Origin: Hysterangium stoloniferum
Taxonomy: Eukaryota > Basidiomycota > Agaricomycetes > Hysterangiales > Hysterangiaceae
Direction of reading: 5' to 3'
Length of the DNA stretch: 64,000 nucleotides
Assembly: GCA_015178975.1 (NCBI GenBank)
Contig: WHVD01000096.1
Location: 62,001-126,000 of the forward strand
Position numbers and translations under genes: made by a program. Position 1 is the stretch's first letter; each line of letters opens with the position of its first letter. The notes under the pieces are model-generated. The model saw only the letters and a list, made by a program, of their open reading frames with translations, had not been told where the DNA came from and did not search any database. This document shows positions 33,922 through 47,807 of the stretch, one piece after another.

Positions 33922-36040
33922 TTAAGCGTCACCGTCCTCCTCACCAATGTCAAAGCCTTCGACAGTGACATTCCACCTCCACCGTCCTTCTAGAAAGCCC
34001 TGAGCAGTGTCTTCTAACACAATCTCGTTACGCTTCTGTACATAAACCTAAAAACAAAAAGAGAGATGAGCCGAGGCAGGCTTATAGTGTAGCATGACAC
34101 GAACGGTCTTGTCGGTCATCTTCTGGCGAAGCTCTGCAATCTTGTCTGGGTTGATTGGTTCTTCCAGGAGTTCGGAAAGGTCTTCAACCGCCTTCTCGAG
34201 ATCACTGTATAAGAAAGAAATCAATGCAACATAGTCATTTCGTGTTTGGCTGTAAATACCGTTGGTTGTCCTCAAAGAGCTCTTTCTCATTCCCCTTGTC
34301 GAGGTAATATGCCATAGCATAAGTCCATTTCAGAGTCATTCGGCAACGTTCAACTTCATCGACTGCTTTACGAGCGAATTGCACTTCTATCCAGGTTAGT
34401 TCTGAGGTAATTTGCATTTCCTCCATTTTCTTTTCCGTCTTCGCATACAGCTCCACGGAGAGTTTGGCAGATTGCTCGTGGTTGGCCCAGCGGTTGTAGT
34501 ACTGGTGGCGTAAAAATATTAACATATCGGTAAGGATCCGAGGTCTTGCGAAATGTGCTTACGTGTAGGTATCGTTCCAGAGAAGCTCTGCTACGTGACT
34601 GTGCATCCCGTGCTTCTACACCGGATTGATCATCGTAGCGATTGCATGAGTACCACGCGGTTCCATGCTCAGACCATGGTCCTTGATTTTGGGTAAGATT
34701 GTCTTGTTGTAGATGATATTTTAACCATTCTCACCCATGCAAACCCAACAGAATCTATTTGAAAAGTTACTGAGAGAAAGATCATTCAAAAATAAACACA
34801 TACTCGTATCTGCACTTCTTACATGTCATATGGCTACGGTGTGTAAGTACTGAAGGTTAATTTGTACATGAACATTCAAAACATACTTGCAACCGCCATT
34901 CTTCTCTATTGTACTTTGACACTTGCTGCACTCTTTCGTATTGCTTTTAATCCAGTTAGCCGTTTCACTATCATCCTGGCATTTCTTGAGCCACAATTTG
35001 GCCACGCTGCAAACCAGGGGTCGATGATCCGACTCGATTGAGCATCCGAAACAAAAGGCGTGGCCAGCGGCGCAGCGTACGGTGGGTACCATTTTGCTGA
35101 GACTGGTTTTAGAAACCCCACTTTGACATTTGATGGTGTAAACACAAGACGGTGCCGGACAAAATTTAAGCTGTGCTTGGTGAGCGACGTAATGTCTTAC
35201 CACGAGTTCGTGGAAACGTTCGAATGTGGCGTCATCTGTAACCTTCCGGATGAATGAGTCAGATACTGTCAAGGAACAGCCAGTAGCCATGCATGAGAAG
35301 GAACATTCCCCTTCTTCGCGGATCTTTGACGTCACATACATGGACCAGCAGTCAGAGCAGAAGACATGGTCACATTCCAGTGCCAGGGTAGAAGGTGGTT
35401 CGCTGCAGCAAATAGGACATTCAAAGGTCTGGGAGACTGTTTTCGCAAGTGACGGTATGGATTTGGCCAATGATGTAGAGCCACGAGTAGAACGTCGGGA
35501 AGGCGTCGTAGGGGAGTACGGAGGGGAGTGCGACGGCGACCGGACAATTTCTAGTGTGGGTGTAGGAACTCCCGCAGCCTCGTTAACGGCAACTGGATGA
35601 TCCATGTACTTCTCAATAAGACGTTCTTTGTTCCAACTCATATACCTCAAGAGAAGCATCGCAGTGTTTAGCTGCAGACATATTAGAATACAGCAAGCGA
35701 AACAGACCAACAGCTATGCTCACATTCACACCAAAGATGCCCACAACATGATCTGCTTCTTTCTGAATGGACTCCTCCATCTGCGAGACTGAAAGAGACT
35801 CGTACTCTACTTCATACACCTTACGCTTCCCCTTGGGAGACGGAATACGAAAATCATCGGCAAATCCATCTTCATCATCCATATTGTCATCTTCCTCTTC
35901 TGAATGTGAGGAACCTAGTAATTGTTATCGTCACTGCAGCTAATTAACAGAATCCACTTGCCATCTTGAATGTCCATTTCTTCATCTTCATCATAAGAGA
36001 CTTCCTCCTCCTCAGCATCTGAATACTCATAGTCAGACAT
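33922..36040 (-). CDS. RBR-type E3 ubiquitin ligase, Ariadne family
   Basis: Nine exons (35962-36040, 35724-35914, 34887-35671, 34804-34833, 34735-34754, 34563-34681, 34260-34501, 34105-34204, 33922-34047) give about 563 residues. The order is an acidic N-terminus ([13 protein letters not shown]), a UBA-like region ([20 protein letters not shown]), RING1 (FECPICC, then [10 protein letters not shown]), IBR ([17 protein letters not shown]), RING2 ([19 protein letters not shown] with the catalytic Cys in GGC) and the Ariadne coiled-coil tail ([21 protein letters not shown]). This class takes ubiquitin onto the RING2 Cys before transfer and works with neddylated cullins. Intron 1 has a GC donor; RING2 is split over exons of 785, 30 and 20 bases. 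Confidence 0.95.
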
Positions 36041-36203: not shown

Positions 36204-39200
36204 CTACCCAATATCATTAGATTTTAAGGGAAAACATTTGCGATGAAAAGGCAAGCCCGTTATTCTTTGAACAACCCATCCCCCCTCTCCACTTTTTGTC
36301 CAATCACTCCCTTCCCACCTCTCAGTAGCTATTGAGCTGTTTTCTTGTAAGTGCTTCTTGCAATGCGCACAAACTACGTCTTGTGCCTTGGAACCCCGCG
36401 AGCGAGTACGAGCTAAATTTTCGACTGCCATGAATAAGTCCCGCTCGACTAGGCGACTCGTTATGAGTAAAAGGTCTCCTTCCCCTCTATAAGAGTCTAA
36501 CATCCCAGTAAGAATAATTCGAAACTCGGAATAAGAAGATCGACTTGAGGAGCTGGAGCTGGAAGCCGATTCCACCAGTCGCTTAAATAAACGGGGAAAT
36601 GACAAAGCGGAGGATGATCCTAATGCCATCAAGGATGTAAATGTTGTTTGTACCGAAGACCTTAGAGAATTTAATATTTCTTCTTGGTCCAGTGTCATCA
36701 CGCCGGTTTCTCTACCTTCATACTTACAGAATCCTGAAACAGTCTGCGCGGTGTCAATTTGGCTGCCTAGTAAGCTAAACCAGGAGTCTTCGACCACCGA
36801 ACTGGCCAAGGAATCGAGGACTGAGCTCTTCGAGCATATGCGAAGGCCAATGTCGCCTAACGCATTGAGCTTGCTAAGTAAGTTTTGGGTTTCCATAGCG
36901 TTTTCAAGTGTGGTATGTTCGAATAGAAGGGATTCACCAAGCTGTAGGGCTAAAGTGGTATTTACAGCCTTTAATTTCTCAAAGGCTGCTTGAGTATCTC
37001 CATGTTTGTCGAGATACCAGACTATTGCTTCATGCACGCCAGCTTGTTCGCATATTGAAACCACCTTAGTCCATTCGAAGAAATCGTCGTCAACATTGTC
37101 TAGACAACCAATTACGCCAGACGCATCATATTGGCAAAGTAATTGCAGGTATAGCATTTTCGAAGACTCGTCGAGCTTCCTAGATGGGCGGAGTTTACGA
37201 ATACCTGGAGGGTTAGACCAGGATACCTCTTCCGATACAGACCCAGGTTCGATCAGACAGCGTAAATACACAAACTGCTTATACGGAGACGTGATTTCCT
37301 CCAGGACTTGGCGGTGCAAGATCGAGACATGTTTATCCACCAGGAACGCAGTTTCCGTTACTCCTGTTTCCAAGAGTAGAGGGATGGCACGCATTGTGGC
37401 TGCCAATACTTCCTCTGGGAAGACCCCTTTGCTGGCACGTGCTACAGTGGAAAGCACTTCTTCGAGGCTCTCAAAAATCTCCGCAGCATCAACATCGGGA
37501 TCCTCGACAAATGTTGAAATTAAATAATTCCATTTATGATCCTGGCGATACCAATTCCTTAAGATGCGATAGAAACCAGCCTCTTGGAACAATTTGATGG
37601 CTTTCTCGTTGTTGTGCGGAGAATAAACAGAGAGCAAATATTCAGCTGCCAACTGACGGTCCTCCCGCGTGCTGGCATCGACATCGGTTGCAAGACCAAC
37701 TAGTATATCATGGAGCGCGCTCGGTAACATGTACGTATAAATTGACTGCGGGTATTTGGGAACATTGCGTGCAATGAAAATGTTTAGCATCGTGCGCGCA
37801 GAAGACGATAAGTTGGATGACGACGGCAGTATTTCAAGAAAAATCCTGATGATGACAAGTCGGTTAACACTCTGAGAATCATCATTGAAATAATCATCTT
37901 CAAAAGCCATATCCATCGTGTGCAAGAAAGCCTCGGCATCGAAGCGCAAGAGTAACCGGACATAGGGATACGTCGGTTCAACGCCTCCTTCTTCTTCGGA
38001 TGTCAAAATGAACTTCCCATCGTTCCCTTCTGGCCAGACGTGCGATGTACCGAAAAATAGGAAGGCATAGATGCTTCTCTTGGCTAGCAAAGCATCCTCG
38101 GATGGCATAAATCTCTGACTAGGATAGACAAGACCTGATAAAGTATCGGCTAAGTAGGTGTACACCTTATAAGCATCCAACACCATCGTTTCCGAGAAGT
38201 GCGTTGACGGCATTTGCGATGCAAGGTTATCCTTTGTCGATATGCCGAGTAGCTTTGGCTCGCGTCGATGACGTTGAATTTGCCGAATCAAATTTAAAAG
38301 GTCCACTAGAGGCGTAACGAAATCGCGCAAAGACCGAGTGTAGACGTATATTAAAGCATCATAGAGATGGTTTTCCCGGCATAGTGTAATGGCTTGATGA
38401 ACATCCAAGCAGTCTGGATCAATATGCCAGATCAACTGTTCAGCCTCGCCAAAATCGCCCTGGTCCGCATGGATTGCAACGAGGCGTTGCGTTATACGTG
38501 GAGGGATAGCACGAATACTACCATCCAATACATACTTTTCTAGTCTTTTCAAAAAGATTGGAGTGATCCCAGCATTTTGATAATACTCGAATAGGTCCTC
38601 AAAAATAAACTCTAAATCTCCCAAAACAATGCAAGCATCGATGGACACATTGACGAGCCCCTCAAAGAGGGACGTACGGTCGATACCTCTGCCATCAGGT
38701 GTAACATGCGTGTTATCTGTAAATCGTTCTTCTGCGAATGCGTACCGTGCGGATGCGCTCATCAAATCGCGCATTCGTTGTCCTACGAGAGTTTGCAATA
38801 TCACAGGGTCGTCGGGCAGTCCTATTCGGTTTCCAGGGGCAGTTCCTAGATAATATAATCGACAGGAGTCGATGGCATTGAGGAAATCTCCACTTTCCAC
38901 AAATGACAGTATCCTGTCAGCCCACGATAGCAAAGTGCCGGCTTTCAATTCATGACGACCCTATCCAACTATAAGGGGGGTTATGTTGAATGAAGCATAG
39001 AACGCCTCACCAATAGAAATATCCTTCCCTTGTATACCCTCAAACAGTGTGCAAGACGCCCATAGTCGATGTGGTCCTCAGATTCGGGTTGAAATATAGA
39101 AGCTACGTCAAATGGAACATGTTCTACTCGCGTACCCGTCCGCACATCCCAGACTTCGAAATGAGTCGCTGTACACGCGAGAAGAAGCTATTTACACTTA

Positions 39201-41083
39201 TTGTTAGCCATGTAAAGAGTCGAATCAAACATAGTATACACACATGCACGTTTAACCATTGTATAGCCCAGTAGTCGACGTCCGTTGACCATCGCAACAC
39301 CTCCTCAAATTCTAATTTACCAACATCTACAATAGTAAACTTTTCAGGTGTTTTGGAACTTTTGACTTTTTGTTGAACCCTTGTTTCCGATATTCGCAGT
39401 AGGTAAATTTCCCTTCCCCAGCTATACGCCAAAACGGGATGTGTGCCTAATCCTTTAGGCTGTTGTGAGATCGCGGATGGTCCGTCATTGGTTGTGGAAT
39501 GAATATCGATACTAGGAAACCATGCCAAACAACCCCTGAATCTGGAGGAGCCTGGGACTGTCTCATTTATATCGTGCCTATGCTTGCGGAACCATGTCCG
39601 AGGAGAAGGTTTCAAAGCAACTATGACAAGCTTGGCTGGAGTGAGAAGTGCAATCAAATTGTAGCTTTCAGTTGAATGAGCACAAGAACCGAGGGGAAGG
39701 CATGTCATGGCCAGAATTGTATTGCCCCTTTTGGGTCTCGAATCCCGCAGACGATGGTCGGTAAGATTTCCCTTACCGAGCTTAGTCGCATTATCATGTT
39801 TGCCTTGGACATCTCGTATACTCTCCGGATATTTTCCCAGTACCCTTAATGTATCAGTAGCCTCAACAAACATAACTTTACCGAGGCTGTGATAGAATGC
39901 GAGCCCGACCTCATCCGCAGACACAATCGCTGTATGACGGGCCCCGACAAAATCCACACTTAAAATCCGTGATCCTTCAATATGCCCTTCCTTTCTTCCA
40001 GAGGCAACAGCAGCTAAAGATGTGGGAGTGACAAAACGAGCTGGAGTTTGAGGACGGGAAAGGTCGAAGAGCTTGATATGACCATGATAATGACCAACCG
40101 CGATGAAGGTATGATCACGAGAGAGAGCGAGAGCAGTTACTGGCCCCCCTACTTCAGCTTTGGAGACTGATCAGTATTATTAATTTTAAAGCGCTTGGGT
40201 CAACTCACCAGTGTCGTCAGCTCCGCAGATACATTTAAGCTGTTGTTTGAAATCAAAAACAAGAACACGGCCTCTGTCAGTGCCTATGCATATCAACCCA
40301 TTGGCGGAGAATACAGTAGGGGAGCCATGAAACGAGCCCAAGACTGATGCTGCTTTTCGCGAATAAATCTGCTGCCCGATATCCTGAAGAACAGCCCACC
40401 GAAAGACTTCACGCGGGGGTGTACGACGATTAATATCTTCCTCGGAGTGGCTATGAAGGTTATTTGTGGAAGAGGTTCGTGAAATTGACAGATGGGAGGG
40501 TGAGGATATTGTATCCCGGTGGTTAGAGACAGAAACAATGTGTTTATTCGATGTTTGAGGAACAAAGGAACGCAGGCGGGAGATTGTGGGGTGAAGAAAA
40601 GGTCTTGTCAGCTTTGAAGGGAAGTCCTCAATAATTGTAGAAGTATCCCCGGGATGGAAGCTAGAAAGTGAAGGTGAAGAACCGTCAGACATCCCTTCAA
40701 TCTACCGCATAAGGTTTAGCAATACAAACGACTATCTGTGTCAATAATGTTTACGCACTTACCTTGTTCGATAGATCGTGGTCAAACGCCTCATTATCAT
40801 TCGAAAGCTCTGCACTTTCAGCTGTCCCTTGAAGTTCCGGCTCGACTTCCTCGTCATCTAAACCTTCAAGGAATTTATGCAATTGTTCGTTGTAGGTAGC
40901 ATTTGTCGAATCTGGGTATAAGAATTCCTCGTCCTCGTCCTCGTCGTCACTGTGTCCCAAAGCATCATCCATTTGGCTGGCATAATCTCTGTGAGAATCT
41001 AGTTCTGGAGGGTTGGGATCATCATGATCATCAACAACATGAACTATACTCGGATCCTCAAAATATTGCTTCGCTATCGGCAT
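36204..41083 (-). CDS. VPS8: Vps8, CORVET tethering complex subunit
   Basis: Five exons, 40763-41083, 40209-40701, 39250-40157, 39011-39187 and 36204-38960, give about 1551 residues. After an acidic N-terminus (DYASQMDD, DDEDEDEEFLY) comes a beta-propeller with WD-like blades: FSANGLICIGTDRGRVLVFD, GGPVTALALSRDHT, VGHYHGHIKLFD and ACTATHFEVWDV. A long alpha-solenoid follows (TLLSWADRILSFVESGDF, AEQLIWHIDPDCLDVHQAIT). The C-terminus keeps a CAHC pair and a HRKC pair, less than a full RING-H2 finger. CORVET tethers early endosomes with Rab5/Vps21. The frame is open to 41251 but only GTG codons precede the ATG at 41083. The start lies 211 bases from that of antizyme, on the opposite strand. Confidence 0.9.
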
Positions 41084-41294
41084 TGAAAGCCAAGTGACAT
41101 CGAAAAGTTGTGAGAATGATTGGGTGTGTCGAATTACATAATCGTAAGTTGTCTTCAAGGGTGACCCGGGACCTGGTCTTGGCAACTTATCCACTCTTAT
41201 CTTTCCACCACCATCTCGGTATAAGCCATTGACGTCGTGCTCGACAATCACATCTCTTCATCTCTACCCAATTAAGCAAGCAAGTTGGCAAACC

Positions 41295-42429
41295 ATGTCG
41301 AATACAATTTCAAGTATGTTGAAACAGAAATCTAGTCCTAGCCCCGCGTACGTTACCCATAGGTATCCTCCGGTGTTGTGTTTTAAAGTCTAATACTGTT
41401 TGTTCATTAGCAACGGCCGTCAAACCGTTGGAGATGGGGCATCCTTCCTTGACAATGTTCTTGCGGTCTGCCATGTTCAAGGCGCCGATAATATCTACTA
41501 TTATTCCACTACGTTTTCTGGCGGACCTGGGGTGAGCATTGGTGAATACCTGGATTTACCCATGTGGCTTAATTTTACCCAGTGGCATTTTTGACACCCC
41601 TAATGAAAAATGCCCTCCTGATGGAGGGTCGTCGGGCTGTGTGACAGGCAGTCCGGCGTCTTTATTTTTCTCTTCTTCCCCTCAGTTTACTTCTGGACAT
41701 CATTCTATCTATAATTTCAAACCCCAACACAGTCTGGTTTATCCTTCAACTCCCGAAAGTTTGTCGAGCGAGTTTAATTCATCGTTGGAATCTCTTGCCC
41801 TCCCCTCGGCAGTATCTTCCATTCCTATTCCCACAAAGAATGCGGCTCGGGTTCCCGCACATAATCTTATGACGCCTCCGTACACACCAGAGGATGTAGG
41901 TAGTGTCAGGGGCGGTAGCCTTGGGAGCATCAGCGCAAGGCAATCATCTGCTGCACTGGATTTCTTAACAGCATTGTTTCCCCGGTCCGGTCTTTCAGCG
42001 TTGCCACACGCCAAAAGCGTGAATATAACTTCCCCAATATTAAAAACTGCGTGGGAGGGTATTGTATTGGATTTGCCCAATGATCAACGTACGTTGTATG
42101 TCCACGGCAAAAACGCCGAGCACGTTGAGCTCCGAGAAAGGTAGATGTTATTTTAGCTGCGCTGCACTGATTACTGAGACCCTCTTAGCATTGTTGCACT
42201 TCTAGATCTAGCCGATGAACACCTAGAGTGTACTGCATTTGTCATTGCCTTGGATAAGTCTTCTCCTAGACTTGGTAAGCTGCTGCTATTGATGTGATTT
42301 TTGTTATCAGCTTTCTAACACCTTCCAGGTGAACTTTTGCACTCTCTTATGTACGTTGGTGGTACCGTGGTCACAAAGCCCCCTTTTGAGGTTGATGCGG
42401 CATATGTCCTCGTGGGCATCGAGATTTAG
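41295..42429 (+). CDS. OAZ1: Ornithine decarboxylase antizyme, expressed by +1 ribosomal frameshifting
   Basis: Five exons, 41295-41347, 41411-41531, 41583-42140, 42189-42274 and 42329-42429. In the zero frame, ORF1 of 61 codons (MSNTISSMLKQK, then FLDNVLAVCHVQGADN, FSGGPGWHF) stops at TGA 41592-41594. A +1 shift at TTT-TGA-C continues as DTPNEKCPPDGGSSG and runs to the true C-terminus, for about 305 residues in total. The antizyme domain is clear at the end: SIVALLDLADEHL, FVIALDKSSPRLGELL and MYVGGTVVTKPPFEVDAAYV. The W-x-x/D-x-P pattern around the shift is the same as in animal antizymes (WCS/DVP). Antizyme binds ornithine decarboxylase, blocks it and sends it to the proteasome; polyamines raise frameshifting, so the product limits its own inducer. 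Retaining the 51-base intron 2 would not remove the stop. Confidence 0.93.
41589..41595 (+). promoter_or_regulatory. Programmed +1 frameshift site, TTT-TGA-C
   Basis: The zero-frame codons TGG CAT TTT are followed by TGA. Slipping forward one base reads GAC and opens the antizyme frame. A slow stop codon next to a slippery P-site codon is how antizyme frameshifting works in other eukaryotes. The site sits 9 bases after the exon 2/3 junction. Confidence 0.85.
41613..41628 (+). promoter_or_regulatory. GC-rich hairpin downstream of the frameshift site
   Basis: CCCTCC-TGAT-GGAGGG forms a perfect six-pair stem with a four-base loop, starting 18 bases after the TGA. Its position fits a 3' stimulatory element, although the spacing is longer than usual for animal antizyme pseudoknots. 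Confidence 0.5.
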
Positions 42430-46185: not shown

Positions 46186-47807
46186 ATGGCCTCACGGTGT
46201 CTGTCCACTACCATCAGGCGTACTATCCGCGGAACTATTAGTCCGGTATGAAAGATCACTTTCATTTGTCAGTGATACTTAATGTCTTGTAGCGGTTGAC
46301 TCGCTCATTCGCAGCGCCAGTTAACCTCTCACCGACTACAGAGGTAACCACCTTGTCCAACGGGCTCACGGTGGCGACCGAAGCACACCCACATGCCCAG
46401 ACGGCCACTGTAGGTGTATGGATCGATGCTGGCTCCCGAGCAGAAACCGACGCGACGAACGGAACCGCCCATTTTCTGGAACATATGGCCTTCAAAGGCA
46501 CAAATCGGCGCTCTCAACGCGACCTTGAGCTCGAAGTTGAGAACCTTGGCGCCCATCTCAATGCATATACTTCTCGGGAACAGACCGTCTATTATGCGAA
46601 GAGCTTCAGGCACGATGTGGATAAATCGGTGGACATAATTAGTGATATTCTGCAGAACTCCAAACTGGAGACACAAGCAATTGAAAGGGAGCGTGATGTT
46701 ATCCTTAGAGAACAACAGGAGGTGGATAAGCAGCTAGAAGAGGTAGTTTTTGATCATCTACATGCGATTGCTTTCCAAGGTATGAGAGACAAAAGGTCAG
46801 TTTACAATATGCTCATGTCCATTTATAGGTCAACCTCTTGGTCGCACGATTTTGGGTCCAAAGGCAAACATCTTATCTATCAAGAAGGATGATCTTGCGT
46901 CATATATCAAAACGAATTATACCGCCGACCGTATGGTCCTCGTGGGTACAGGTGGTGTCTCGCATTCAGAGCTCACCAAACTCGCTGAAAAGCATTTCTC
47001 TTCTTTACCTGTATCATCAAATCCGATCCCCCTTGGACGAAAGTCACACCCTGCTACACGTTTCATTGGCTCTGAGGTCCGGATACGTGACGACACTATG
47101 TCTACGGCAAATGTTGCAATTGCTGTCGAGGGTGTTGGCTGGAGTTCCCCCGATTACTTCCCAATGCTAGTTCTCCAGTCTATCTTTGGTAACTGGGATC
47201 GCTCCCTAGGGGCCTCCCCTCTCCTTTCGTCTAGGTTGAGTCATATAGTATCCTCCAATAACCTTGCGAACAGTTTCATGTCATTTTCGACGTCTTATTC
47301 CGATACAGGCTTGTGGGGCATCTATCTGGTCACAGAAAACATTATGAATATCGATGACCTTCTCCATTTCACGTTGAAAGAATGGGCTAGAATGTCCACA
47401 GGCCCCCTTGACAATGAAGTCGAGCGTGCCAAAAGCCAACTCAAAGCCAGCTTGCTACTTGGTTTGGACGGTACAACTGCCGTTGCGGAGGACATCGGGA
47501 GACAATTGGTGACTACTGGACAGAGATTCACGCCACAGCAAATTGAGAGAGCCGTGAACGCTGTCACTCCGGCAGAAATTCAACGAGTCGCACAGAAGTA
47601 TATCTGGGACCGTGATGTGAGCCTTTTTTGAATCTCTGACCACGTTTCACCTCCTTACGCCGTATCAGATCGCCATCGCTGCTGTTGGGCGCGTGGAATC
47701 AATTTTGGATTACAACCGCGGTGAGTGTCATGATATCTTTGTCATCGATTTTGAACTGAATCGTTTGATTTATAGTACGAGCCGACATGTCATCTCTTAT
47801 TTACTAG
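46186..47807 (+). CDS. MAS1: Mitochondrial processing peptidase, beta (catalytic) subunit
   Basis: Removes presequences from imported mitochondrial proteins in the matrix. Five exons, 46186-46245, 46293-46779, 46829-47616, 47669-47720 and 47776-47807, give 472 residues, the family length. The presequence is basic ([14 protein letters not shown]). The inverted zinc motif HFLEH is at residues 80-84, followed by [24 protein letters not shown] with the third zinc ligand. This shows the catalytic beta subunit rather than alpha or a bc1 core protein. Other conserved blocks are [35 protein letters not shown] and the C-terminal [15 protein letters not shown]. The last exon is 32 bases. Confidence 0.96.

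Follow-up and report, generated by a model that had tools for sequence, protein, structure and literature searches.

How is an antizyme made from a gene whose start-codon frame closes at a stop before the antizyme domain, which lies in a different frame? This question is raised by a locus on the forward strand of a 64,000-nucleotide stretch of the Hysterangium stoloniferum genome (positions 62,001 to 126,000 of contig WHVD01000096.1; assembly GCA_015178975.1, 111,116,353 bases in 554 contigs), hereafter the window, to which coordinates refer unless another contig is given. We conclude that this is almost certainly an agaricomycete antizyme gene read by a polyamine-sensitive +1 ribosomal frameshift at UUU-UGA. 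A programmed frameshift, as proposed in a first-pass annotation of the sequence, is supported by the antizyme domain itself, by the presence of the published frameshift stimulators in their places, and by an identical frame offset at the same junction in 85 of 200 relatives.

The arrangement of the two frames given by that annotation proved correct in its coordinates: the ATG at 41295 and the TGA at 41592-41594 share the zero frame, with TTT (41589-41591) directly 5' of the stop to form the shift site TTT-TGA (41589..41594), and the antizyme lies in the +1 frame. Following splicing, the first open reading frame (ORF1) comprises 61 sense codons and ends in GGG TGG CAT TTT TGA. The open +1 frame (ORF2) includes GAC at 41593 and consists of three parts (41593..42140, 42189..42274 and 42329..42429, ending in a TAG stop at 42427-42429) separated by intron 3 (42141..42188, 48 nt) and intron 4 (42275..42328, 54 nt), neither of which is present in the continuous ORF of a relative, P0002. 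The resulting 244-residue ORF2 product was found to match the Pfam antizyme family ODC_AZ (PF02100) over residues 152-230 (45.2 bits, E 9.9e-12, cut-off 24.2), and a profile search of the joined frameshift product, a check suggested with the annotation, also returned the family (44.6 bits against the same cut-off). This joined product is 305 residues long with intron 1 at 41348-41410. The ORF1 product matched no Pfam family at E <= 10. Introns interrupt the domain in genomic DNA, and ODC_AZ was found in the spliced product; a PF02100 profile search of the H. stoloniferum genome gave no match, which was not taken as absence because 14 control genomes were likewise blank. A structure model of P0002, predicted from a 30-sequence alignment, is confident for the C-terminal half and poor for the part before it.

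To place the offset in a comparative context we assembled 200 distinct homologs from two protein searches (the best 120 of 463 matches at E <= 0.001 and the best 120 of 410). In 85 of them the +1 frame continues without a break from exon 2 across its junction with exon 3 and on into the antizyme domain; many of these sit on short contigs, and every one carries F at the shift position, where the search pattern required D or N in the following position and left F itself free. P0002, which is 86% identical to the window product over 174 C-terminal columns, has a single ORF spanning all three downstream intron positions on a contig of 1,090 bases, which suggests that its source was a spliced cDNA. 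Sorting the 200 proteins by pattern revealed how databases model the gene: 85 begin in the +1 frame within exon 2, 97 are zero-frame models, of which 48 lack the shift-site readout and 49 cross into the +1 frame at that point, eight have another 5' end with the readout kept, and nine begin downstream or are otherwise unclassified. By pattern, a true frameshift junction was present in one protein, P0057 from Ganoderma lucidum, and absent from the other 199. Public gene models therefore nearly always misread the mushroom antizyme gene, and because they do so, fungal antizyme predictions near the shift site are untrustworthy. Antizyme frameshifts are known to hamper automatic detection (PMC2375905).

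The sequences surrounding the shift site correspond closely to a signal already described. UUU-UGA was reported in all 34 Agaricomycete antizyme mRNAs analysed and in one from Dacrymycetes, with experimental tests of the signals (Yordanova et al. 2015, PMC4505036). As set out in the text of that study for Coprinopsis cinerea and others, the cassette comprises a nascent peptide of 11 residues (codons -15 to -5), module A next to the site, and a 3' signal of AAAU with two directly adjacent hairpins from 19 nt downstream, the second with a conserved 7-nt loop; an Ala-Val dipeptide and, within ORF1, a conserved 5' stem complete it. Each of these components has a counterpart in the window, module A differing in one codon. 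The nascent peptide YYYSTTFSGGP (41496..41528, codons -15 to -5), to which we assign the role given in PMC4505036, is identical and in the zero frame in 82 of the 120 top-scoring proteins of the first search, which found 463; many of the remaining listed models stop short of this region or splice it out. Module A (41529..41588, named as in PMC4505036) is assembled by splicing, with intron 2 separating GGG (codon -4, 41529-41531) from TGG (codon -3, 41583-41585); GGG-UGG is as published, and the next codon is CAU (41586-41588) in place of the published CGN.

Downstream, the predicted 3' stimulator (41608..41658) follows the published layout, with AAAT (41608-41611) abutting stem 1 (41612-41618/41623-41629, loop UGAU), which starts 18 nt after the TGA and is directly abutted by stem 2 (41630-41640/41648-41658) with a 7-nt loop, GUGACAG. 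The double hairpin folds at -32.0 kcal/mol (z -4.99), and none of 200 shuffles was as stable. The Ala-Val dipeptide is present in the window product and, upstream, a 5' stem is predicted in spliced ORF1 (span 41341..41440), one arm formed by 41341-41347 joined to 41411-41416 and the other by 41425-41431 and 41435-41440; its 13 bp are interrupted by a 3-nt bulge, and its stability (-22.3 kcal/mol, z -3.83) was also matched by none of 200 shuffles. Among relatives, the residues encoded over stem 2 were observed to be coupled (C with G in 97, W with D in 58 and other combinations in 14 of 169 readable cases). By our reading these residues fall on the base pair that closes loop 2 (41640-41648), and the coupling may represent a change of that pair or shared ancestry only.

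The first-pass annotation had presented TTT-TGA as a useful natural variant; the site is indeed present, but it is not new, since UUU-UGA occurs in all of the Agaricomycete antizymes of PMC4505036. In our literature search for 'UUU-UGA' with antizyme that study was the sole match, and the mushroom case is restated in PMC5009743. The gene is thus an ordinary further member of a family whose type of shift codon and signals were described in 2015, and extends the mushroom cassette, in its main parts, to a further lineage. The gene also resembles the G. lucidum antizyme GlAZ in its two ORFs, its TTTGA shift and the conserved YYYSTTFSGG (PMC9604110), although GlAZ has 333 residues rather than 305; GlAZ has been linked to ornithine decarboxylase (ODC) and putrescine in the same report. 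With animal antizymes (UCC-UGA) the gene has in common the antizyme domain, a +1 shift at a UGA stop and polyamine feedback. Pseudoknots are described in PMC4505036 as common among 3' signals elsewhere, whereas the window carries a double hairpin. The Saccharomyces cerevisiae OAZ1 site (GCG-UGA-C) likewise combines a +1 shift before UGA with a polyamine response but, unlike the window, has signals that dampen shifting at an intrinsically efficient site (PMC4505036).

Published work on relatives suggests how a genome with the parts observed in this study (both reading frames, the antizyme domain, the elements in their positions, one convincing gene copy and an ODC gene) would sense polyamines by slippage and act on ODC. 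Ribosomes would translate the 61 codons of ORF1 up to UUU-UGA, where high free polyamines would cause some of them to slip by +1 with UUU in the P site and to read GAC next, aided by the exit-tunnel peptide YYYSTTFSGGP, by the module A nucleotides on the 5' side and by the double hairpin on the 3' side. The 305-residue antizyme so produced would bind ODC and direct it to the proteasome, and the loss of ODC would lower polyamine synthesis and close the feedback loop.

Three observations weigh against this interpretation. The 5' stem, at 13 bp and -22.3 kcal/mol, falls short of the published figures of 14 bp and at least 30 kcal/mol (PMC4505036). Searches of solved-structure sequences, using either the ORF2 product or a 12-sequence alignment, gave no antizyme chain. 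Finally, CAT at codon -2 deviates from the published CGN, and could lower the efficiency of the site.

This last feature was examined across relatives, with codons -2 and -4 deduced from +1-frame protein residues, which fix the second and third bases of codon -2 and leave its first base free. The window codon, CAU (His), is unusual; CGU is the codon given in PMC4505036, with its third position the most variable. Among the 85 junction-reading relatives, the corresponding +1 residues were A in 35, G in 34, V in 12, I in three and D in one, equivalent to GC, GG, GU, AU and GA, respectively, at the two bases. In a broader set, a codon -2 residue was obtained for 142 of the 200 proteins (G 72, A 46, V 20, I 3, D 1), each of which has F as its shift residue; the other 58 have a downstream start, no site or, as in P0057, the true junction. 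There the G. lucidum protein reads W-R-F, with Arg at codon -2, in contrast to W-H-F in the window. Our conclusions rest mainly on the stricter set of 85; an earlier, looser pattern had returned 139 rows including a false one (P0030). At codon -4 the same 85 relatives showed GGG in 53, GAG in 27 and GGA in five, GGG being the window codon.

An A at the second base of codon -2 occurs in three of the 85 relatives. Two, P0002 and P0004, group with the window at a fork (support 94/90) that also holds P0105, whose codon -2 is not readable, and the third, P0080, falls with Exidia (99/98). In this midpoint-rooted tree, where rows near P0080 are unreadable at the codon, the placement weakly hints that the change may have arisen twice. 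We tentatively propose, as a possibility we consider rather less than even, that a branch related to Ramaria and Sphaerobolus swapped the arginine codon CGN for CAU (His), with a separate gain of A near Exidia, and that this E-site change re-tunes the polyamine response while the other stimulators stay fixed.

Experiments reported in PMC4505036 bear on what such a change might do. With DFMO and 50 uM spermidine, replacing CGU at codon -2 by CGA or AGA cut frameshifting to 60% and 36% of control, respectively, whereas UGG did not lower it; the single NGA codon among the 85 relatives fits the reported weakness of CGA. CAU is absent from the codon -2 constructs described in the text of that paper, and we did not find it described in the literature, although Figure 2A or the supplement of PMC4505036 may show it; it is the sole feature of the gene for which we found no description. 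One alternative, compatible with a polyamine-sensitive shift at UUU-UGA, is that CAT has weakened the site, altering the set point at which this lineage makes antizyme. The losses caused by CGA and AGA and the rarity of NAU at this position (three of 85) lend it some weight, yet we regard it as unlikely given that UGG is harmless, that the remaining stimulators are all in place and that the CAU-type variant, common to P0002 and P0004, seems tolerated, CAU itself not being among the constructs described. In either case, CAU at codon -2 represents a natural substitution bearing on a question left by the 2015 work, namely whether E-site codon strength has any influence.

A far less probable alternative to a frameshift at UUU-UGA is that splicing brings ORF1 and ORF2 into one frame. 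The first-pass annotation had dismissed this on the length of intron 2 (41532..41582, GTGAGC...CCCAG), whose exon junction is crossed by the +1 frame in 85 of the 200 homologs. It is correct that the TGA is in frame whether these 51 bases are kept or removed, because the zero frame stays open across the intron (ORF 41394-41594), but the arithmetic alone is insufficient, as introns that join the frames exist on paper. Changing one intron at a time, we enumerated the GT/GC-AG introns that would bring the two frames together: downstream of intron 1, 29 single introns with lengths of 35-200 nt could do so as substitutes for intron 2, and with intron 2 kept as it is, so could 14 other first introns and three extra introns further down. 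The best-looking of these run from donor 41532 (GTGAGC) to acceptor 41685 (TTCCCCTCAG, 154 nt) and from donor 41314 (GTATGT) to 41362 or 41410. Furthermore, 97 of the 200 database models (48 + 49) pass from the zero frame to the antizyme frame without a shift. These models, however, disagree on the bases inserted or deleted there, as expected of predictors forced across a frame change, whereas the exon junction with offset frames recurs in 85 homologs, many of them on short contigs. The 41532 to 41685 splice would also remove the conserved 3' hairpins, and a cloned Ganoderma cDNA carries two ORFs with TTTGA (PMC9604110). The conclusion that splicing does not repair the frame is thus backed by these comparative data and not by intron length. 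Least credible of all is an assembly or sequencing error in the five-T run at 41588-41592, a typical spot for indel errors, given that 85 of the 200 relatives show the same offset, that UUU-UGA occurs in the 34 published Agaricomycetes (PMC4505036) and that the known stimulatory elements surround the shift site.

Comparison with relatives also led us to revise the start of the gene. Exon 1 (41295..41347, MSNTISSMLKQKSSPSPA...) is defined by the ATG and the splice-corrected frame, and most aligned relatives have a similar N-terminus; exon 2 (41411..41531), whose zero frame is conserved in relatives, carries the nascent-peptide signal. Between them, intron 1 is better placed at 41348..41410 (63 nt, GTACGT...TTAG) than at 41363-41410 (48 nt), judging by protein residues and predicted folding. 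The 5' end was moved to 41348 because P[A/T/I]N[G/A] directly precedes VGDGA in 86 of the 97 proteins containing VGDGA, and the five extra residues implied by the shorter intron are missing from them; the 11 that lack the motif include P0003, the closest named relative, whose model differs there. Folding also separates the two boundaries. When intron 1 starts at 41348, the 5' stem stretch (48 nt) gave z -3.44 with none of 300 shuffles as stable, compared to z -0.39 and 105 of 300 for the stretch (63 nt) obtained with 41363. For the sequence from the ATG to GACAATG the corresponding values were -2.83 (three of 300 shuffles as stable) and -0.14, and with the 41363 boundary the first 110 bases of ORF1 folded no better than shuffles (z +0.53). 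Both lengths are multiples of three, and the frame is unchanged.

The gene is apparently the only antizyme gene of the genome, as judged from searches of the assembly with ORF1, ORF2 and a sequence pattern, each of which found one convincing place, the window locus (the protein searches score only the best candidates). A scan of the 111 Mb assembly gave a single hit for the shift-plus-AAAT pattern (TGGNNTTTTTGA, 10-30 bases, AAATGCCC) and none for its reversed form. A candidate second copy on contig C442 of the same genome, G000 (E 6.9e-4, 38% identity over 65 residues, three internal stops), was dropped because only 14 residues aligned on checking and the pattern occurs nowhere else in the genome. 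Of the other weak matches (E 0.09 or worse), three share stretches resembling 'NPSSPDSI'; these were taken as chance matches from another gene family. The genome also encodes the expected target: positions 14411-14650 of contig C334 match the ODC C-terminal family PF00278 (66.3 bits), the sole place to do so, and the open frame there aligns with human ODC over 261 residues (E 4.6e-73). Ahead of the C-terminal domain, this 600-codon frame (L009) appears to include a stretch resembling an intron.

Neighbouring the antizyme gene is a VPS8-like gene on the minus strand (36204-40170), transcribed away from it, with matches to the Vps8 TPR and beta-propeller families in 36204-38960 and 39124-40170. 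A further minus-strand frame at 40751-41257 had no Pfam match and may be the N-terminal part of the VPS8-like gene; if so, the two genes would have a short promoter region in common. Elsewhere in the window we identified matches to ribosomal protein L1 (14633-15529, minus strand), an ARIH1-like RING/IBR protein (34826-35713, minus strand) and the inactive domain of Peptidase M16 (46786-47631, plus strand).
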